Source of the DNA: Planctomycetota bacterium | Lineage (GTDB): Bacteria; Planctomycetota; Phycisphaerae; Phycisphaerales; SM1A02 | Assembly: GCA_022566535.1 (NCBI GenBank) | Contig: JADFIR010000005.1 | Span: forward strand, 1-64,000 | Length of the DNA stretch: 64,000 nt | Direction of reading: 5' to 3' | Notes under the pieces: generated by a model | Database searches by the model: none | What the model saw: the letters and a program-made list of their open reading frames with translations, nothing else | Told to the model about the DNA's origin: nothing | Shown: positions 9,529 through 30,575 of the stretch, piece after piece | Layout of the letters: the number at the start of each line of letters is the position of its first letter | Numbering within the stretch: position 1 is the stretch's first letter | Program-made: the position numbers and the translations under genes

Positions 9529-9557
9529 GCGTATGGTTCCAAAACTCAGGCGAGCTC
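9529..9557 (+). repeat. 29-bp repeat, copy left of the DUF2779 gene
   Basis: Begins GCGTATGGTTCCAA and ends GCGAGCTC. A second copy with two mismatches is at 11359-11387, in the same orientation. The pair brackets the DUF2779 gene. A weaker match, GCGTATGGTTGC, begins at 31731. Confidence 0.6.
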
Positions 9558-9562
9558 GTCCT

Positions 9563-9725
9563 GTGCCAATATTCAGCCCAACTGCAAATCGCACTGTGTC
9601 AAGAGCTTGGATTTGCTGGCGGCGGGTCGTTTGTGGGCCGAATCTGGCACGCATGCGATGGGCTGCGGAGATGAAGTTCACACCATCTTCAAGCTCTTGA
9701 CGCATCACACTTCGGCTTGGGCTGA
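9563..9725 (+). mobile_element. Miniature element (MITE-like), copy 1, ends degraded
   Basis: Shares about 160 bp with the copies at 14330-14515 and 18375-18561, including a core with CGCACTGTGTCA and GAAGTTCACACCATCTTC. The outer terminal-repeat bases (CGTATGGG and its complement) are lost at both ends. No coding function is evident. Confidence 0.75.
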
Positions 9726-9864
9726 CTGATGACGGGGCGAATTCGAGGAGTCAGCCGCGGTGGCGCCTTTCCGCTGCATGTGGGAACATTCGGTGATACA
9801 GCCGGCTGCGGCGACAGGGACAAATTCAACAGGCTGTTGAGTTCGACAACATAGGGATCGAATC

Positions 9865-11316
9865 ATGCCGAACCTCACGAAGGAATTGTTTCTAAACGCG
9901 ATTGAGTGCCCATTGCGGGCGTGGTTCATGTTCCGCGGTGAAGGGGCTGTCGCGCCGACTTTGGCAGAGCAGTTCCGTATGGAGCAGGGGCTGGATGTCC
10001 ATCGACGTGCGAGATCCCGTTACCCGGATGGTATGTCGGCAGCGCGCGCAGGGATTGAGGAAGCGGCAGCGCGGACGCAGGAGTTGATGGCCGATGCGGC
10101 GGTGGACGCGATCTTCGAGGCGACGTTCGTGACCGGCGAGTATGCCACTAGAGCCGACGTGCTGACCCGCAGCGGGGATGCGTGGAACCTGATCGAAATC
10201 AAGTCGAGCGTGAACGACAAGCCGGAGTTGATCGACGACTTGGCATACACGGCGATGGTCATGCAGCGGACGGGCTGCACCATTGCCAGTGCAGCGCTTC
10301 TGCTTGTATCGCGTGACTTCCGCTTGGGTATGGAGGACCGCGACCTGTTTGCCTCCTACGACCACACCGATGATGTCAGAACACGCGTCACTGAGTTTTC
10401 TGCATTAGCGAATCGTGTCGCTGAGTCAATGCGAGGAGAGGCACGTCCCGACGGCCCCCTCATCAAAGAGTGTCGAGACTGCTCCTTCTTTGTCACCGAA
10501 TGCCTAGGCGCGGGAGTCACGCATCCGATCTTCGATCTTACACGCCTGACCGGACCACGATTCGAGAGACTCGCAGACGCGGGCATTGTCTCGGTGAACG
10601 ACATCCCGGCCGACTACGAACTGACGGCGACTCAAGAGCGAGTGCGAGGCGTGATCGTGTCGGGCGAGCCGGAGATTGGAGCGGGTTTGGGTAACGCTCT
10701 GGCCGAAGTTGAGTGGCCCACCTACTACCTCGACTTCGAGACGTTCGCAACGGCCGTGCCGGTCTACCCGGACATCGAGCCGTACCGAACGATCCCGATG
10801 CAGTTCTCCGTCCATGTTTGTGCCGCGCTCGGCGACGTGAGCGCCCACCACGAGTTCTTGGCCGAGCCGGGTGGCGATCCTCGCCGCGGGCTCGCGGAGC
10901 GCCTTGTCGAAGCGCTGGGCACCGATGGGAGCATCGTTGTCTACTCCTCCTACGAGAGACGCATCCTGAACGATCTGGCGTCCGTATGCCCCGATCTCGC
11001 TGAGCGACTTGAGGGGTTTGTGAGCCGTCTGTTTGATCTGGAAACCGTCTTCAAGCAGCACTACACCCATCCCGACTTCCACGGGAAGACTTCCATCAAG
11101 GTGACCGTGCCTGCACTCGTTCCCGAGATGTCCTACGACGGGATGGAAATCGGGGACGGCGACAGCGCCTCGGCTTGCTTCGCCTTCATGGTTTGGGGCA
11201 GATATGGGGCTGGCGAGGTAACGGACGTGAGAAGGAACCTGCTGGCGTATTGCAAGCACGACACACTGGCGATGGTGCGACTGCACGAACGCATGGTCCA
11301 GATCGCATACGGCTGA
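9865..11316 (+). CDS. DUF2779-type protein: Cas4-like PD-(D/E)XK nuclease plus DEDD-type exonuclease-like domain
   Basis: 483 residues in two halves. The N-terminal half resembles RecB/Cas4 nucleases: Asp in TRADVL (about residue 98) and the E-x-K of LIEIKSS (about 111-113). A Cys-rich segment, CRDCSFFVTECLG, is placed as in iron-sulphur Cas4 relatives. The C-terminal half has exonuclease-like motifs: YYLDFET (about 289), VVYSSYERRIL, and YCKHDTLAM near the end. Proteins with DUF2779 are often in mobile or defence islands; their activity is poorly known. It stands alone, bracketed by the 29-bp repeat. DNA degradation is a reasonable inference. Confidence 0.8.
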   Translation: MPNLTKELFLNAIECPLRAWFMFRGEGAVAPTLAEQFRMEQGLDVHRRARSRYPDGMSAARAGIEEAAARTQELMADAAVDAIFEATFVTGEYATRADVLTRSGDAWNLIEIKSSVNDKPELIDDLAYTAMVMQRTGCTIASAALLLVSRDFRLGMEDRDLFASYDHTDDVRTRVTEFSALANRVAESMRGEARPDGPLIKECRDCSFFVTECLGAGVTHPIFDLTRLTGPRFERLADAGIVSVNDIPADYELTATQERVRGVIVSGEPEIGAGLGNALAEVEWPTYYLDFETFATAVPVYPDIEPYRTIPMQFSVHVCAALGDVSAHHEFLAEPGGDPRRGLAERLVEALGTDGSIVVYSSYERRILNDLASVCPDLAERLEGFVSRLFDLETVFKQHYTHPDFHGKTSIKVTVPALVPEMSYDGMEIGDGDSASACFAFMVWGRYGAGEVTDVRRNLLAYCKHDTLAMVRLHERMVQIAYG

Positions 11317-11513: not shown

Positions 11514-14312
11514 ATGAAGCCAGGCGAGGCATTCGAACGCAGAGTCGCTGATCTCTACCTCCGACTCGGGGCATCGCGAGTAGAGCGCAACTTCCCCCTC
11601 GCTGGCCGCGTACTCGACGTCTACGTAGTATTCAAGATCCCTGATCGTGGTGGGAAGCACCGTATCGCGGTCGAAGCGAAAGACTGGAAGGATCCAGTCG
11701 GGCCAGGTATTGTTGCTGAGTTCTACAGTAAGATAGCGTTCCCTCTTCGCATCGCCGGCAAGATCGAGGAAGGTGTTATCGTTTCCGCGAAAGGTTTTAC
11801 ACCGGGAGCACGTAGAGCACGCGAGACATATTCCGTACGCCTGATCGAAATCGAGGAGCTCGAGTCAAGTGCTACCGCCGAGCGAATCGCTGCGTCTCCA
11901 CTCTTCATGCTCATCCCGACGCCGCCCACGCCGCATATTGCACACCCGTATGTGCTCCAAAGCCATTTCACTGGCCGCGACGAGCAGCGCCGGATGCTTA
12001 CCAGTTGGTTAGAGCAAGAAACGGCTTCGCTATTTCTCCTTGTAGGCCCAGGTGGCACTGGAAAGACAGCCCTCTCCTGGGTCTGGTACATATGGGACCT
12101 TCTCGGGTATCACAGTGCGGTGCCGGCTGAGCTCCCGCGACACTGTCCACTTGATGGCTTCGCGCCTGAAGGCATGTTCTGGTGGTCCTTCTACGGTGAA
12201 GAGGCAAGCTTTGACTTTTTCCTCGATGAAGCCCTCTACTACGTGAGCGCAGGCAGTGTTGCCCCGCACGAAATCGCGTCACCCAAGGAGAAGGTTCGGA
12301 TACTCACTGCTCTCCTCCGAAGGAAACGGTTCCTGCTGGTACTCGATGGATTCGAGCGCGAGCTTGAGGGGTATCGGCACACTGCAACGGTTGCTCAGGC
12401 GCCGGATAGCGATATAAAAGACGAGTTCCGCGCGTGTTCGGATCGCTACGCTTCGGATTTTCTGATACGCGTCGTGTCATCTCCGATACTGACGAGCCGC
12501 GTGCTGCTTATCAGTAGGCACCAGCCGCGAGAACTAGACGATCTTGCTACGAATTTTGCATGTCTGCAGGTCTCAGGACTGGACCCGCCTGAGGCTGTCA
12601 TGTTTTTGAAGAATCATGGAGTGCAGGGTAAAGACGCTCAGCTCAAGGCAGTTTGTTCCGCGTACTTCAATGACCCATTCGCGCTGCGACTTGTGGCAGG
12701 TCACATCATGAATCACCCAGACAAGCCTGGGGACATCCGGATGGCATCGGGTTCTTCCGTCATTGGTAAACTTACGAATAGTCGGCGCCACATTCTCCAA
12801 GTTGAATACGACAGCTTGGCTGAAGAGGACCAGCAGTTGCTGCAAGGGATAGCCGCGTTCTGTACACCGCTAGCCTACGAGGAGTTGTTGGTTCTCAACC
12901 GCTACACATCCGAAGAGTCATTTGCGCGTGCGCTAGCGCGCTTGGAGAATCGCGGTTTGCTATCCCATGACCGCCAGCGCATGCGCTTTGATCAGCATCC
13001 GATCGTGCGCGCGTTTTGCTACGCCGCCCTACTTCGTACCGGCAGACAGGCGCGCAGGGACACAGAACGCTTTCCCGTGATCCCGGACGCGATCCTTGCT
13101 GGTGAGATTCGCGAAGACATGAGACCGCTTTTCACGATCGGACACATTGATGTGGCCCGTGCGTTTGAATCCGCAAATCGGCTGAAAGAAGAAGATCTCA
13201 CTCCTGTGATCGAGCTGTACTCCGTCTTGGTTGATACTGGACGCCACGATCTCGCAAGGGCACTGTATAGGGATCGCCTAGCGGACTTGCTCTACTATCA
13301 TTTTGCAGCGTATCAGAAGTGTATCGACTTGCTTAGTGCGCTGGTTCGAAGCAATGAAAGTATGGAACCCCTGCTGGAGAGTCCGCATGCACAGGCATGG
13401 ACCCTCCAAGTGCTTGGTAACTGCCTTATGCAAGTAGGCAGACCTGGTGACGCTGCAAAGTCATATCACCGAGCTTCTGAAATCGCTCGGTTAACCTATG
13501 ACCGTAAGGGAGACGCGCAGAGCTCGGTGAACCTCGCATACCAACTCTTCTCTCTAGGAAAGCTCATGGATGCTGAGAGCGCCTTTCGCAAGAGCATTGC
13601 CTTGTGGAAGCAGATTTTGGAGCCGGTCGCTGAGGCAGAGGCGCATCAGGAGTTTGGACGGCTGCTAGTGTACTGTGGCCGGCTGGAGGAGGCGAATCTG
13701 GAAGTCGAAAACGCCCAGCACATTTATGCTGATCTTGAGACGCCCACACAGGAGTCAGAAGGAGTTGGACTCACATACCTCGCTCTGTGCAAGCTGGCGA
13801 CAGGTGAGGGTCGGGAGGCATATCGGGTCGCAGGGCAAGGTCGATCAAAGGTTCAGTTGGAGTCGAACGTCATTTGGTCAGAATGGGTGCTCGGAAAGGT
13901 GTTGACCGCGCTCGAGAGCAGCGGGCGTGTAGCTGAGGGAAACGCTGATCGTCATCTGACTGAGGCCCTGGCCCGCTGCCAGCAGCTTCGATGCGTTGAG
14001 ATTGAGAGGTATATCCTGATATCCTGCGCGCGCCTGCAATATCAACGAGGCAAACTGGCAGAGGCCTTGAAGTACGCTGAGGAAGCTATGACCGTCGCTG
14101 ACAGAGGAGAATACAGATTAGAGCAGTCAGACGCGCACAACATAATCGCACGTGTCGCACTGAGTAGGGAGAAACGGCAGGAGGCCCGACAGCATGCGGA
14201 GAAGGCTCGAGGGCGCGCACGCTGTGATGGACCAGGCCACTGGTATCAGGCAGCCCTGACCGAAGCAGAAACGATCCTCGCACAGCTTGATGAAGAACAG
14301 ACGGGCCCGTGA
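11514..14312 (+). CDS. Mrr-type nuclease / STAND NTPase / TPR protein (candidate anti-phage sensor)
   Basis: 932 residues. An N-terminal Mrr-like restriction endonuclease domain (1-115) has Asp in VLDVYV and E-x-K in VEAKDW (54-56). An NB-ARC/STAND ATPase follows with Walker A GPGGTGKT (178-185) and Walker B FLLVLDGF (about 272-279). From about residue 590 the C-terminus is helical repeats of TPR type, for example QVLGNCLMQVGRPGDAAKS. Nuclease-STAND-repeat layouts are known from Avs/NLR-like defence proteins, in which the repeats sense a phage product and the nuclease kills or clears. It has no operon partner and lies between the 29-bp repeat and a miniature element. Confidence 0.82.
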   Translation: MKPGEAFERRVADLYLRLGASRVERNFPLAGRVLDVYVVFKIPDRGGKHRIAVEAKDWKDPVGPGIVAEFYSKIAFPLRIAGKIEEGVIVSAKGFTPGARRARETYSVRLIEIEELESSATAERIAASPLFMLIPTPPTPHIAHPYVLQSHFTGRDEQRRMLTSWLEQETASLFLLVGPGGTGKTALSWVWYIWDLLGYHSAVPAELPRHCPLDGFAPEGMFWWSFYGEEASFDFFLDEALYYVSAGSVAPHEIASPKEKVRILTALLRRKRFLLVLDGFERELEGYRHTATVAQAPDSDIKDEFRACSDRYASDFLIRVVSSPILTSRVLLISRHQPRELDDLATNFACLQVSGLDPPEAVMFLKNHGVQGKDAQLKAVCSAYFNDPFALRLVAGHIMNHPDKPGDIRMASGSSVIGKLTNSRRHILQVEYDSLAEEDQQLLQGIAAFCTPLAYEELLVLNRYTSEESFARALARLENRGLLSHDRQRMRFDQHPIVRAFCYAALLRTGRQARRDTERFPVIPDAILAGEIREDMRPLFTIGHIDVARAFESANRLKEEDLTPVIELYSVLVDTGRHDLARALYRDRLADLLYYHFAAYQKCIDLLSALVRSNESMEPLLESPHAQAWTLQVLGNCLMQVGRPGDAAKSYHRASEIARLTYDRKGDAQSSVNLAYQLFSLGKLMDAESAFRKSIALWKQILEPVAEAEAHQEFGRLLVYCGRLEEANLEVENAQHIYADLETPTQESEGVGLTYLALCKLATGEGREAYRVAGQGRSKVQLESNVIWSEWVLGKVLTALESSGRVAEGNADRHLTEALARCQQLRCVEIERYILISCARLQYQRGKLAEALKYAEEAMTVADRGEYRLEQSDAHNIIARVALSREKRQEARQHAEKARGRARCDGPGHWYQAALTEAETILAQLDEEQTGP

Positions 14313-14329: not shown

Positions 14330-14515
14330 CGTATGGGTCCAATATTCAGCCGACCTGCAAATCGCACTGTGTCAGGACCTTGGATTTGCTGGCGACGGGT
14401 CGTTTGTGGCCCGAATCTGGCACGCATGCGATGGGCTGCGGAGATGAAGTTCACACCATCTTCAAGCTCTTGTCGCATCACGACTTCGGCTTGGGCTGAC
14501 TTTTGGACCCATACG
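14330..14515 (+). mobile_element. Miniature element (MITE-like), copy 2, complete
   Basis: 186 bp with terminal inverted repeats: left end CGTATGGGTCCAATATTCAG, right end complementary with two mismatches, ending TTTTGGACCCATACG. No transposase is encoded. A transposase fragment with the same kind of end is at 30576-30760, a likely relative of the autonomous parent. This copy is the left border of the ubiquitin-like operon. Confidence 0.82.
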
Positions 14516-14659
14516 GGGCTCGTATTCCGGCGGCTGAATCAATAGCCATCTCTTCGGAAAGAACAGTCAGAGCATTCACCATGGAGCATCGCCGGCGCAA
14601 AAGGTTTGCAAGTGGGAGCGGTCGACGATTGCGAAGGCAGTCGCTAAAATCTCGGGAAT

Positions 14660-15409
14660 ATGACCCCAACCTACACGATCTTCGCCGTTGGCAAGGGCCA
14701 CATGATCTTGGTCCAGTTCTCGAATGGAGTCAACATGCTCGTGGATTGCCGGCGCTCGGGCAATTGGCCCTCTCCGCTCGCACATCTGAAGTCAAAGATT
14801 CAAACGCTGGATGTGGTGGTCATCACCCATCCGCATCAGGATCATCTCACAGGTCTCCAGGAGGTGTGCGAGTGGTACAGGCCGCGTCAAATTTGGCACA
14901 ATGGACGCTATTTCAGGCCCGATCCAGTCTATGACGACTGGAGCTACTACGAGCGTTTACGCAACGGAAAGATCTCTTTCTGTACACCGGTCCGTGTGCA
15001 GGAAGGCTACACGACCACGATCGGCGACTCACAAATCTACGTGGCAGGCCCAACTACTCCGAATCTCCAGGGTACGGCGGACGACGAGAACAACAACGGC
15101 ATCATTTTGGCAATTGCCACCAGCAACTCAAAGGTGGTGCTCACTGGTGATACAGAAATGGAACAGTGGAATGCGATCAATCTTACGCCGCTCGCGAACG
15201 CGTCAGTCTTCCTGGCCAGCCATCACGGGCGCGAGGACGGCTATTGCAAGCGGGCGCTCGACGTAATAGAGCCACAACGGATCATCATTTCGGATGGCAA
15301 ACCCGCCGCGACCGATGCGACAGCCAAGTACGATCGCGTCGCACCGGTCTCGACGACACGGAATGGCTCCGTTGTTGTCCGAGCGAGCCAAGTTGCCGCG
15401 CGAGCATAG
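14660..15409 (+). CDS. Metallo-beta-lactamase-fold hydrolase, first gene of the ubiquitin-like operon
   Basis: 249 residues of ComEC-like metallo-beta-lactamase fold. Metal ligands are visible: THPHQDH (about 55-61), the Asp of LTGDTE (about 163), and SHHGR (about 187). There are no membrane segments, so it is a soluble cytosolic hydrolase rather than a competence channel. Eighteen bases separate it from the 48-residue gene, and the next genes are E2, E1 and JAB. Metallo-beta-lactamase-fold genes have been reported beside prokaryotic E1/E2/JAB clusters (family knowledge from memory). The substrate is unknown; nuclease, peptidase or thioester hydrolase roles are all possible. Confidence 0.85.
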   Translation: MTPTYTIFAVGKGHMILVQFSNGVNMLVDCRRSGNWPSPLAHLKSKIQTLDVVVITHPHQDHLTGLQEVCEWYRPRQIWHNGRYFRPDPVYDDWSYYERLRNGKISFCTPVRVQEGYTTTIGDSQIYVAGPTTPNLQGTADDENNNGIILAIATSNSKVVLTGDTEMEQWNAINLTPLANASVFLASHHGREDGYCKRALDVIEPQRIIISDGKPAATDATAKYDRVAPVSTTRNGSVVVRASQVAARA

Positions 15410-15427
15410 GTAGATTCGGAGGCTTAC

Positions 15428-15574
15428 ATGACACATAGCTCAGAAGAGGTTCTGGTTGAACAGACGCCGGAGGAGATCATCGAGATTGATGAGGACGGCG
15501 TTGTGCATGCTGTGGGCAAGACTCCAGCCGGATTGAAGTCGACAGTGCTTCGCGATCCAGAGGGAGAGTATTGA
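15428..15574 (+). CDS. 48-residue acidic protein in the ubiquitin-like operon (candidate conjugated modifier or adaptor)
   Basis: ATG preceded by CGGAGG; its TGA overlaps the E2 start (TGATG), so translation is coupled. The protein begins MTHSSEEVLVEQTPEEII, is very acidic, contains a probable beta hairpin (IIEIDEDGVVHAV), and ends RDPEGEY. It is too short for a whole beta-grasp ubiquitin fold and has no Gly-Gly tail. In comparable operons this slot holds the ubiquitin-like protein. Its function is unknown: it might be a reduced modifier, a target peptide, or a regulator of the MBL protein. Confidence 0.75.
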   Translation: MTHSSEEVLVEQTPEEIIEIDEDGVVHAVGKTPAGLKSTVLRDPEGEY

Positions 15575-15996
15575 TGCCTGAGATTGCGGCAGATCCGGAA
15601 CTCACGCTCACGTCATCGCAGATGCAGTCGAACCGCTGGTACCATGAGCAGGAGAAGCTCAAGATGTTTCCGGCATTCGCTCTGGTTGGGGCAAATGGCC
15701 AGATCAAGGCGGCCGAGGGTGCTCTTGACACACAGTACAATAACACCTATGGCCTCCGTATCGCACTTGAGAATTATCCATACGCCCTTCCAAAGGTGTT
15801 TCCGAAGGGTTGGACCGTTGCCCCCGGGGTCCTCCACAAATTCCCGGATGGTTCTATCTGCATCATGAAGTGCGGGCAGTGGCAGCAGTATTTCACTGTG
15901 GCGCTCGTCGTTGCGAAGGCGGCGATCTGGCTCGGCAAGTACGAGATTTGGAAGCGGAACGGGCATCGGTGGCCCGGGCTCGAACAGCAGCATTAG
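15574..15996 (+). CDS. E2-like (UBC-fold) conjugating enzyme
   Basis: 140 residues. The candidate catalytic cysteine is Cys96, in HKFPDGSICIMKC. It follows an H-x-F/P segment that corresponds to the HPN region of E2 enzymes, and is followed by W and a hydrophobic helix, as in UBC folds. Cys100 is an alternative. The N-terminal half has the expected beta-sheet with ALENYPYALPKVFP resembling the YP-x(n)-P motif. It would accept a modifier from the neighbouring E1 as a thioester. The ATG overlaps the stop of the 48-residue gene, and the E1 gene starts 4 bp after its stop. Confidence 0.82.
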   Translation: MPEIAADPELTLTSSQMQSNRWYHEQEKLKMFPAFALVGANGQIKAAEGALDTQYNNTYGLRIALENYPYALPKVFPKGWTVAPGVLHKFPDGSICIMKCGQWQQYFTVALVVAKAAIWLGKYEIWKRNGHRWPGLEQQH

Positions 15997-16000
15997 GCAC

Positions 16001-16831
16001 ATGTTGCAATTCGATCGAATCCAGCACCTGCTCTCGCCGGAGCAGCTTCACGATAAGCTCGTCGTTCAAGTGGGCGTTGGCAGCGGAGGCGCTCCAGTGA
16101 ACGAGCATCTGACAATGAATGGGGTTCGACGCTGGGTGCTGTTTGATCCAGACGTCTACGATGAGATCAACCTTGTCAAGCATCCCCACGGACGAAATGC
16201 AATAGGTCATCTGAAAGTCGAGAACCAACAGAAATGGATTCTGGATCGCAACCCGAGCGCTGACGTTGAAGTTCGTGCCGAGGATGTGATGAATTCCGCT
16301 GGCTTCCGTAAGTATGCAAAGGAAGCAGATATCATTCTCTGTTGTGCGGACACTCAGCACGTTCGGTTGTTCGTGAATTCCGTTGCAGTAGAGGTTCGCC
16401 GGCCTTGTGTTACGGCGAGCGTGTTCCGTCGGGGCTTCGGAGGGGAGGTCTATGCCTACATCCCAGGCGTTTCGGGTTGTTTCGAATGCATGGCGCGTAC
16501 ATCGGAGGAAAAGGGGTGGAACATCGATGAGTCGATCGATCTGATAAAGGAAGAGAAGGACGCCATCTACGGGTTGAACCTCCGCGATTTCAAGGCATCT
16601 GGCTTGTCATTGGATATTCAGAGCATTGCCCTAATTCAGGCACGTATCGCCCTTGACATCCTCCTGACTGGCTCTGACCACGCGCTGGAACCAGTTGCGC
16701 AGAACTGGATCATCTTCTATAACAGGCAAATACCGAACAACCCAGAGACAGGCTTCCTGAAAAGCGTCAAGATAACTCTGAAACCTAAACCCGAATGCTC
16801 CTGTGCAGTCCATGAAGCAGCATCGACCTAA
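16001..16831 (+). CDS. E1-like ThiF-family adenylyltransferase
   Basis: 276 residues, single ThiF/E1 domain. The nucleotide-binding glycine loop is VQVGVGSGGAP (about 22-32), then FDPDVYDEINLVKH, equivalent to the ThiF D-x-D-x-V-x(n)-N-L box. The CFEC pair (about 159-162) and C-terminal CSC (266-268) are placed like the structural zinc ligands of the family. Known homologues adenylate the C-terminus of a beta-grasp protein and load it onto E2. It has neither a fused E2 nor a fused JAB, unlike CBASS Cap2. It overlaps the JAB gene by about 20 bp. Confidence 0.88.
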   Translation: MLQFDRIQHLLSPEQLHDKLVVQVGVGSGGAPVNEHLTMNGVRRWVLFDPDVYDEINLVKHPHGRNAIGHLKVENQQKWILDRNPSADVEVRAEDVMNSAGFRKYAKEADIILCCADTQHVRLFVNSVAVEVRRPCVTASVFRRGFGGEVYAYIPGVSGCFECMARTSEEKGWNIDESIDLIKEEKDAIYGLNLRDFKASGLSLDIQSIALIQARIALDILLTGSDHALEPVAQNWIIFYNRQIPNNPETGFLKSVKITLKPKPECSCAVHEAAST

Positions 16832-17771
16832 AACAACTAGACCGCGTGACCTAGGAATCCAAATTGCGATGGACCGCAATGTCCTTGGATATATCACCGC
16901 CGATGTAGCCAAGTCACCCGACGCTGAGGAAGGTGGCAAGTTTGTCGGATACCTACTGGGCTCACACAATACGGAGCTTCAAGCAATCGGCCTCAACCCT
17001 GAGACTCCAGCGCTCGTAGTGACTGATTACCTTCCTAGTGGCCCGAATGCCGTGCGTTCCGCCGTGGAACTGCTGCCAGATGGTGAATACCAAGAGAGGC
17101 TCTTCCGGCAGATTGAAGGACTGGATTCTGACATTGAACATCTCGGAAGCTGGCATAGTCATCATTGCAATGGACTACGGACACTGAGTGATGGTGACCT
17201 TCGCGGCTACTTCCGCACGGTCAACAAGACGGCATATCGACTGGATTGGTTTCTCGTTTCGCTGGTAACGCGCCTTCCATCTGACCCGAGCGACGCGAAT
17301 TGGATCGATCACTATGTCTTTGTACGTGGTGAACGCGAGTACCACCGCATCACCAACACTGTGAAGGTCATCGATCGGCCAACAAGGTTCGGGCAAATCA
17401 CTACCCACTCATTGAAGGTGGGACAAGGAGCCCGTCGCTCTGACGATGCAGGCACACAGGTTCAGAGCGCGACAGTAGATGCTTGGTACGAGACGGCTGA
17501 GGGGCGGAGGATTCTCGCGGAGGATCGGGATCTCTTCGCCAAACATTTCAAAGAACATGTGACGGCAACGCGGCGTGCGAGTGTCATCACACTTGCTGGT
17601 CGTATCGGACCAGTCGTCATCTCGATGATCTATCCGAGCGATGGCGGCACATCGCAGGTGGCTGTTTCTCTTCGTTGCAATGATGTAGGCATCCTGAAGA
17701 TCAGCAGTGAGCTCAAGTGGCGATGGTTGGCCATGAATGCAGCGCTTGCGGGTGCGGCTGAACTCAGGTGA
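16812..17771 (+). CDS. JAB/MPN (JAMM) metallopeptidase
   Basis: 319 residues from the ATG at 16812 (a GTG nine bases earlier is possible). The JAMM signature is complete: Glu in EEGGKFVGYLLG (about residue 39), and H-S-H followed by S-x-x-D in WHSHHCNGLRTLSDGD (about 113-129). In related systems this enzyme trims the modifier precursor or removes it from targets. The C-terminal 130 residues form a second, unrecognised domain, possibly for target or partner binding. The gene is translationally coupled to the E1 gene and followed after 4 bp by a membrane protein gene. Confidence 0.88.
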   Translation: MKQHRPKTTRPRDLGIQIAMDRNVLGYITADVAKSPDAEEGGKFVGYLLGSHNTELQAIGLNPETPALVVTDYLPSGPNAVRSAVELLPDGEYQERLFRQIEGLDSDIEHLGSWHSHHCNGLRTLSDGDLRGYFRTVNKTAYRLDWFLVSLVTRLPSDPSDANWIDHYVFVRGEREYHRITNTVKVIDRPTRFGQITTHSLKVGQGARRSDDAGTQVQSATVDAWYETAEGRRILAEDRDLFAKHFKEHVTATRRASVITLAGRIGPVVISMIYPSDGGTSQVAVSLRCNDVGILKISSELKWRWLAMNAALAGAAELR

Positions 17772-17775
17772 GGCC

Positions 17776-18291
17776 ATGAAGGAAGTCATCGAGAAACTCT
17801 CATCGTACAATCTCTTCAACTATCTCCTACCAGGGATCCTTTTCGCAGCATTCGGTGACTACATAACCGCCTACAAGATCATTCAAAAAGATCTGCTCAT
17901 CGGTCTCTTCCTCTACTACTTTGTCGGCCTCGTTATCAGTCGAATAGGATCACTCATCCTTGAACCGATCATGCGGAGAGTCCGATTCGTGACATTCGCG
18001 CCGTACACGGACTTTGTGAGGGCTTCGCAACATGATCGGAAGATCGACCTATTCTCCGAGCAGAACAATATGTACAGGACGCTATGCGCACTCTTTCTCT
18101 CGCTGGGGATGCTCAAATTCTTCGAGATCATCGCCGACAGCATCGAGGTGACACCGGAGTTCGCCACGTACATTCTCCTTGGCTTGCTGTTCCTGCTCTT
18201 AGCCGCGTCCTATCGGAAGCAGACTGGCTTCATCAAGAAGCGTGTGGAGCTAGCAAACAGCAGTGAGCACGATGCTCACGTAGGACAATAA
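17776..18291 (+). CDS. Membrane protein ending the ubiquitin-like operon (candidate effector or anchor)
   Basis: 171 residues. Hydrophobic segments: LFNYLLPGILFAAFGDYI, then LLIGLFLYYFVGLVIS, then about residues 93-112, then ATYILLGLLFLLLAASY, so about four spans. An exposed middle segment (60-95) and a polar, charged tail separate or follow them. ATG starts 4 bp after the JAB stop, with GAGG at a short distance, which ties it to the operon. I do not recognise the family. Such a terminal membrane protein could be a membrane-damaging effector, a target of conjugation, or an anchor for the machinery. Confidence 0.7.
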   Translation: MKEVIEKLSSYNLFNYLLPGILFAAFGDYITAYKIIQKDLLIGLFLYYFVGLVISRIGSLILEPIMRRVRFVTFAPYTDFVRASQHDRKIDLFSEQNNMYRTLCALFLSLGMLKFFEIIADSIEVTPEFATYILLGLLFLLLAASYRKQTGFIKKRVELANSSEHDAHVGQ

Positions 18292-18374: not shown

Positions 18375-18561
18375 CGTATGGGTCCATTATTCAGCCCAAC
18401 TGCAAATCGCACTGTGTCAAGAGGTGGGATTCGCTGGCGACGGGTCGTTTGTGGCCCGAATCTGGCACGCATGCGATGGGCTGCGGAGATGAAGTTCACA
18501 CCATCTTCAATCTCTTGACGCATCACGACTTCGGCTCGGGCTGGCTGTTGGGCCCATATGG
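18375..18561 (+). mobile_element. Miniature element (MITE-like), copy 3, complete
   Basis: About 187 bp, same orientation and terminal repeats as copy 2 with a few substitutions (right end reads GGGCCCATATG). It lies 83 bp after the membrane protein of the ubiquitin-like operon, so the operon is bracketed by two direct copies. Confidence 0.78.
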
Positions 18562-18656
18562 GGGTCCACTGCCGAGGACGAATCAAGCCGACAGCGAGTC
18601 AGCAGCTTCCCGCGGTCGAGCCGAATCCGAGGGATCAGACGCTGAGCTTCTCTAGA

Positions 18657-30503: not shown

Positions 30504-30575
30504 CTGAAGTTCACACCATCTTAAAGCTCTTGACGCATCACGACTTCGGCTTGGGCTGACTTTTGGACCCATACG
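30504..30575 (+). mobile_element. Miniature element, copy 4, right part only
   Basis: Seventy-two bp equal to the right end of the other copies, from GAAGTTCACACCATCTTA to TTTTGGACCCATACG. It abuts a transposase fragment that ends in a similar terminal repeat. Confidence 0.7.

Follow-up and report, generated by a model that had tools for sequence, protein, structure and literature searches.

The operon and its enzymes

The window analyzed here, a stretch of 64,000 nucleotides from a Planctomycetota bacterium, contains an operon of six genes, all on the forward strand, in the order MBL, peptide, E2, E1, JAB, and membrane protein. The first gene (14660-15409) encodes an MBL-fold hydrolase resembling PDC-M48B (PADLOC, 7.6e-22; Pfam Lactamase_B) and the last (17776-18291) a membrane protein, assigned to PDC-M48A (PADLOC, 4e-63), which is a putative effector. 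Between them are located the gene of a 48-aa acidic peptide (15428-15574, stop included) and the genes of an E2-like protein of the UBC fold (140 aa; 15574-15996), an E1/ThiF-like adenylating enzyme (276 aa; 16001-16831), and a JAB/JAMM peptidase (319 aa; 16812-17771). PADLOC assigned E2, E1-E2, JAB, PDC-M48B (the MBL protein), and PDC-M48A (the membrane protein) to this operon. The similarity to NCBIfam 6A-MBL was weak and far below the cut-off (38.6 vs 220 and 36.5 vs 320).

The E2-like protein was recognized by PADLOC (8e-9), and its profile aligns with the catalytic region of eukaryotic E2s (1e-5). Cys96 (codon 15859-15861) and His88 are invariant across the E2 family alignment. The best solved match to the E2 model of a relative from an Acidobacteriaceae metagenome-assembled genome (MAG; L019) was the CdnG-E2 complex of S. 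marcescens (Z 11.3, rmsd 2.8, 116 residues), in a comparison that covered the E2 part alone and in which matches within 1 Z are tied. E1 matches Pfam ThiF (1.3e-25). By sequence, MccB is its closest solved relative (1e-21), followed by MoeB, ThiF, and the SUMO E1. ThiF-type and ATP-site residues are kept across the E1 family, together with a zinc-like Cys-x-x-Cys pair. Beyond this pair, the family alignment contains no further invariant Cys as a candidate thioester site, which makes a thioester step on E1 doubtful. The JAB assignment is based on PADLOC (5e-8) and on invariant columns, and the JAMM motif is intact (E39, H115, H117, S126, D129).

Judged from these residues, the E2, E1, and JAB machinery looks active. 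With the invariant Cys and His of E2, the JAMM motif, and the ATP-site residues of E1, it therefore should need something to conjugate. Pfam, PADLOC, and NCBIfam gave no CD-NTase among the six genes, and neither a beta-grasp ubiquitin-like protein (Ubl) nor a CD-NTase gene was found in the window or in the operons of the relatives, as far as these were read.

The peptide gene

The peptide ORF starts with ATG, comprises 48 codons, and ends with TGA. Its product, MTHSSEEVLVEQTPEEIIEIDEDGVVHAVGKTPAGLKSTVLRDPEGEY, has a net charge of -9 and the C-terminus RDPEGEY, of which Gly46-Glu47-Tyr48 are encoded at 15563-15571. A Shine-Dalgarno sequence, GGAGG, is located at 15418-15422, 5 nt before the ATG, and the same GGAGG was found ahead of the peptide gene in all four relatives examined for it. 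The stop codon (15572-15574) shares bases with the E2 start codon (15574) in TGATG at 15572-15576, from which we infer translational coupling of the peptide and E2. Both signals had been named in the preliminary description, and both are in place. The window peptide has no match in Pfam, NCBIfam, or PADLOC. It is the sole ORF with the end GEY among the 1003 six-frame ORFs of at least 20 aa in the window.

Homologous peptides in other genomes

A homologous ORF directly upstream of an orthologous E2 gene was found in six further genomes. Five of these ORFs encode 57-60 aa, and one is intact only in its C-terminal half. A tblastn search with the window E2 yielded one plasmid relative, Mesorhizobium sp. 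AR10 (L004), in which a 57-aa ORF, MTTNSKIDELERLLNSEEDVPIQILPNGEIRQIGQTTSAELGTKKPLTMRENLGGEY, lies directly ahead of the E2 gene. The genome collection was scanned with a DNA pattern encoding the E2 motif WLxKYxxWxxxGxxWPG, which gave four matches. Two of them were true operons with the peptide in place, from a Proteobacteria MAG (L016) and the Acidobacteriaceae MAG, and the other two (L017 and L018) had no such operon among the listed ORFs. Whole-genome searches added three genomes, namely G599, G756, and G062, the last of which belongs to the same phylum as the window genome. The peptide of G756 has an intact C-terminal half (...LTPIQILPNGEIREIGKATISDMGNKKPLTMRENLGGEY), and a normal in-frame start was not found; this copy is perhaps disrupted or mis-assembled, or its start lies elsewhere. 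The E2 matches in Clavibacter, Priestia, Fibrella, Nostoc, and Limosilactobacillus were CBASS-like or isolated E2s, beside which no such peptide was seen, and an E1 match in Microvirga was an ordinary ThiF next to thiamine-like genes. The scanned viral contigs contained no relative of E2, and nothing in the phage records matched the E2 of Mesorhizobium.

In the relatives an acidic stretch near the N-terminus, helical in the model of one of them, is accompanied by a hairpin-like IxIxPNGExR and by L-G-G-E-Y at the C-terminus. The latter two motifs read I-E-I-x-x-x-G and P-E-G-E-Y in the window copy. This copy is the divergent member, to which a profile of four relatives gave only E = 10 (rank 10 of 603 ORFs). 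Because this profile failed to single out the window peptide, global alignment with shuffled controls was used. Aligned to the four relatives, the window copy reached a mean of 33.6 compared to 6.1 +/- 6.1 for shuffled sequences, of which 3 in 5000 were as good. It also ranked first of the 291 window ORFs of 40-70 aa (runner-up 13.4). Since the global alignment, the GEY end, and the position before an orthologous E2 combine, the window peptide is taken as homologous to the peptides of the relatives. A search of the PDB with the peptide profile gave chance matches only, and Pfam gave nothing above the cut-off for the peptides of two relatives.

The peptides from Mesorhizobium and the Proteobacteria MAG differ by a pS of 0.82 and a pN of 0.09. 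For other pairs of relatives pS is also well over pN; pairs that include the window copy have diverged too far for this comparison. The substitution pattern of the relatives thus indicates that the peptide is under purifying selection. The ORF is short and overlaps the E2 start, as would be expected of a chance ORF or of a leader peptide whose translation merely sets the expression of E2. Such an origin is contradicted by the substitution pattern, by the conservation of the sequence across distant genomes, and by the fusion of a similar segment to E2 elsewhere, so that we attach next to no probability to it. We conclude that the ORF is a genuine coding gene. The preliminary description had placed a coding gene in the slot that normally holds the ubiquitin-like protein and had named missing conservation, or a substitution pattern like that of non-coding DNA, as grounds for giving this up; the six further copies in the same slot and their substitution pattern uphold it.

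The conserved C-terminus

The C-terminus is the best conserved part of the peptide, and in the alignment of the free peptides G, E, and Y are invariant, which answers the earlier suggestion to look for a conserved C-terminus or Gly among homologues. The relatives end in LGG-EY and the window copy in PEG-EY. Hence, the Gly is internal and there is no terminal Gly-Gly. The Tyr is followed by GVN in one copy, by YIEG in another, and by no residue in the others (tails of 3-4 or 0 residues). It had been proposed that trimming by JAB could expose an internal Gly as the reactive end. The LGG-EY ends, the residues beyond EY in two copies, and the kept Gly strengthen this proposal.

The conservation of EY after the Gly in all free copies would be odd if these residues were merely trimmed off, which argues against a role as a modifier. 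It is what would be expected of the tail of a bound inhibitor. The peptide might thus be a regulator of the operon, either an inhibitor of E1, E2, or JAB or an infection-responsive switch, with the LGGEY end blocking the active site of JAB or E2. A small, acidic, E2-coupled product would suit such a role. However, residues can follow EY, and an inhibitor leaves unexplained what is conjugated. We therefore regard regulation of this kind as improbable.

A Gly with a short end also occurs in related systems. The CD-NTases encoded upstream of E2-only genes (type II-short CBASS) end in FHG, FYG, or FFG followed by 1-4 residues (..FHG-DE, ..FHG-KW, ..FYG-E, and ..FFG-D). What these proteins share with the peptides, a Gly with a short and variable end encoded directly ahead of an E2 of the same kind, was noticed post hoc. 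In genome G081, which belongs to another family of the same phylum, a 65-aa ORF ending in HYAGR lies directly upstream of an E2-E1 pair (L065, 6566-6763). This ORF may encode a strongly diverged counterpart of the peptide; homology is not claimed.

Fusions of a peptide-like segment to E2

The peptide gene always adjoins the E2 gene, either overlapping it or at a distance of 2-9 nt. In two genomes that are more distant, G051 (locus L028) and G089 (L029), E2 itself carries an N-terminal extension (...DPLDVRELLTDNTKKAVITPNGELKVKGG...GVELMKERYWGN...) that resembles the peptides and aligns with them above shuffled sequences (z 4.3, 0 of 3000, and z 3.7, 3 of 3000, respectively). The peptide-like extension reads AVITPNGELKVKGG...ELMKERYWG. 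Aligned with the peptides, the extension places its RYWG Gly next to the Gly-Gly of LGG, the first Gly of which is not kept in the fusions (RYWG-N/A). Since the segment is fused, a free C-terminus would require cleavage. The peptide-E2 fusion adjoins a JAB-E1 fusion in both genomes. In a model of the fused protein from L028 the extension is at a pLDDT of about 50.

The fusions argue against a simple free modifier and bring in the main rival to the modifier reading, a non-conjugated cofactor of E2. According to this explanation, the peptide is a subunit of E2, a detached N-terminal segment that binds to E2 or links it to E1; its C-terminal tail perhaps occupies the active site as a pseudosubstrate, and another protein or a small molecule is the real modifier. 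The similar segment within one polypeptide with the E2 domain and the constant adjacency of the two genes are both in its favor. On the other hand, conservation is highest in the tail, and its Gly motif is one that activated ends typically have. Moreover, the operon encodes no other modifier, and JAB would have no substrate in it. On balance we consider an E2 subunit possible but rather unlikely.

At both fusion loci a Cas2-like gene, the peptide-E2 fusion, the JAB-E1 fusion, and genes of S1-like and NYN/LabA-like proteins occur together (ORFs named by eye). By the same naming, the locus adjoins type III CRISPR-like RAMP genes in L028 and a reverse transcriptase-like gene in L029. It is unusual for a ubiquitin-like cascade to have CRISPR genes as neighbors.

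Structure models

The peptide had been described as too short for a beta-grasp fold, and this holds by its length, since a full domain of a beta-grasp Ubl has about 70 residues or more, compared to 48 aa here and 57-60 aa in the relatives. A low-confidence model of a relative qualifies this statement. AlphaFold2 predicted for the Acidobacteriaceae peptide a helix (6-14), strands (17-23 and 29-31), a short helix (37-40), a further strand (43-46), and a disordered tail. In this model the peptide was tethered artificially to E2 by stop read-through and reached a pLDDT of about 54-70, and no claim on docking is made from it. The predicted order of elements, alpha-beta-beta-alpha-beta, equals that of the C-terminal half of a beta-grasp; because of the low confidence of the model it is only a lead.

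Following this lead, the peptide might be a half-size ubiquitin that keeps the C-terminal beta-grasp half (helix, two strands, short helix, strand, and Gly tail), the rest being supplied by the E1 or E2 partner or lost. Maturation by JAB would be followed by conjugation in a defence system with MBL, patatin, and membrane-protein components. We consider this reading unlikely. If it were true, this would be, to our knowledge, the smallest modifier known for an E1-E2-JAB cascade.

Comparison with known systems

Relatives of ubiquitin conjugation are now being found in bacterial phage defence. In the systems covered by the literature examined, the role of modifier falls to a beta-grasp protein or to an entire CD-NTase. 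No short peptide in the slot before E2 is described in this literature; the main Bub papers (Ye 2026; Gong 2025) lie outside that scope.

Very short acidic modifiers with a Gly-Gly-acidic C-terminus are represented by Pup and UBact, and Pup is ligated by PafA through its C-terminal Glu. The window peptide resembles both in being very short and acidic. In contrast to Pup, it is accompanied by an E1/E2/JAB set and ends in EGEY rather than in GGE or GGQ, and Pfam and NCBIfam gave neither PafA nor Dop among the genes of the window operon.

Type II CBASS consists of a CD-NTase, the E1-E2 protein Cap2, and the JAB protein Cap3, and its type II-short form of a CD-NTase and an E2. Shared with the operon described here are homologues of E2, E1, and JAB with their catalytic residues (no thioester Cys being identified in E1), a modifier, here a putative one, without beta-grasp fold, an upstream protein ending in Gly or in Gly plus a short tail, and the CdnG-E2 complex as best structural match of the E2 model. 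In contrast, our operon has neither a CD-NTase nor a cyclic-nucleotide effector, a peptide of 48-60 aa occupies the slot, and E1 and E2 are separate. In type II CBASS, cGAS, which has no beta-grasp fold, is conjugated by Cap2 through the Gly at its C-terminus, and linear fusions of two cGAS units are cleaved by Cap3 behind the first unit (PMC10097602). This is the nearest precedent, both for a non-beta-grasp modifier and for a JAB that cuts linear fusions.

The type 6a operons of Iyer et al. 2006 combine an E2-E1-JAB triple-module protein with an MBL protein (PMC1779556). Like these and the NCBIfam 6A-MBL family, the window operon has E2, E1, and JAB beside an MBL-fold gene; it differs by three separate ORFs, by the presence of the peptide gene, and by scores far under the NCBIfam cut-off. 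Bil (BilABCD) and Bub follow the same modifier-E2-E1-JAB logic. The DUB of the Bil operon matures BilA, exposing a Gly (PMC11354881), and thus provides a precedent for trimming to Gly. The modifiers of Bil and Bub are ubiquitin-like beta-grasp proteins, unlike the 48-60 aa peptide found here.

MccB adenylates the C-terminus of a 7-residue peptide, and some MccA precursors have 17-56 residues and a strong Shine-Dalgarno sequence (PMC6495379). MccB thus demonstrates that very short peptides can be activated at their C-terminus by an enzyme of the ThiF fold, a precedent for the modifier role proposed below. The combination of a ThiF-fold enzyme with a short ribosomal peptide preceded by a strong Shine-Dalgarno site is shared with the window operon, and MccB is the closest solved relative of its E1. 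The peptide might consequently be a RiPP-like or microcin C-like substrate, whose C-terminus is adenylated by E1 to give a peptide-nucleotide or another small product, with E2 and JAB being secondary. However, MccA needs a C-terminal Asn and the window peptide ends in Tyr. The microcin C system forms a peptide-nucleotide and has neither E2 nor JAB, whereas an E2 with its Cys and a JAB accompany the peptide in the operons read, in which no exporter or tailoring enzyme was seen. This makes such a product very unlikely.

Both PDC-M48 proteins of PADLOC flank the cascade in the window. On the plasmids L005 and L006 a relative of the membrane protein occurs with no E1, E2, or JAB gene in its vicinity, in one case beside a ComEC-like gene. 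Hence, PDC-M48 is a partner module and not the cascade itself.

Proposed function of the peptide

With somewhat less than even confidence, we favor the explanation that the peptide is a dedicated small modifier, or an activated carrier, of the E1-E2-JAB cascade, with 48-60 residues and without a beta-grasp fold. By analogy, it would take the part that falls to the beta-grasp Ubl in Bil operons and to the C-terminal CD-NTase tail in type II CBASS. The peptide would be made in stoichiometry with E2 via the presumed translational coupling. JAB would then remove the residues past the conserved Gly (EY plus 0-4 more) and expose ...LGG or ...PEG. E1 would adenylate the exposed Gly end and pass the peptide to Cys96 of E2, as the intact catalytic residues suggest. 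E2 would attach it to a target, possibly the MBL protein, the membrane protein, or a host or phage protein, and JAB would reverse the attachment. According to the company in the operons, an MBL, membrane, or patatin partner may execute the response.

Our reserve mainly results from the fusions, which fit an E2 cofactor equally well unless JAB cuts them. A further point against the modifier is that the four-relative profile misses the window peptide, so that homology rests on the slot, the global alignment, and the C-terminus.

The peptide suggests what may be missing from E1/E2/JAB/MBL operons of this type. They seem to have no modifier, since annotation easily passes over so short an ORF. If the modifier role is true, a length of 48-60 residues would demonstrate how small a modifier can suffice for an E1-E2-JAB set, and the operon would offer a very simple system for in vitro study.

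Neighboring genes and possible mobility

What recurs in the operons is a peptide-E2-E1-JAB core, in which the peptide gene invariably comes immediately before the E2 gene; MBL, TM protein, patatin, and NTPase vary. An MBL gene is present in the window, L004, L057, L058, and L076, a patatin gene in L004, and genes of TM-like proteins in the window, L058, L059, and L076. The C-terminus of the MBL protein was considered as the conjugated end and rejected, for the MBL proteins of the window and of Mesorhizobium end in Ala but that of L058 ends in Arg, and L027 shows no MBL gene. The Mesorhizobium E1 (L004, 6024) seems to be missing the nucleotide-binding part at its N-terminus, as a frameshift might cause.

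A second E2-like protein with a Phd/YefM-like (antitoxin-like) N-terminus follows the first E2 in L004 (5427-5957), L016 (2372-2899), L019, L027 (5367-5873), L059, and L076 (4414-4941 of the reverse complement), and is absent from the window operon. Its active-site position is occupied by Ser in some copies and by Cys in others.

A 192-nt repeat whose ends are inverted repeats borders the operon on both sides, with one copy each upstream at 14330-14521 and downstream at 18375-18566, both on the forward strand. Further copies of this repeat of about 190 nt were found in the window at 9557-9748 and 30505-30575. The genome contains about 11 near-full copies, and those on this contig are all in forward orientation. 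The repeat, which is very stable as a single strand (z -4.8), could represent either a MITE or an attC-like cassette border, and the operon may be a mobile cassette. The repeat borders not only the operon but also its neighbor, a repeat-bounded segment in which 11514-14312 encodes a 932-aa protein with an Mrr-type endonuclease, an ATPase, and TPR repeats (an NLR-like defence protein). A DUF2779/Cas4-like nuclease gene (9865-11316) is located in the same region.
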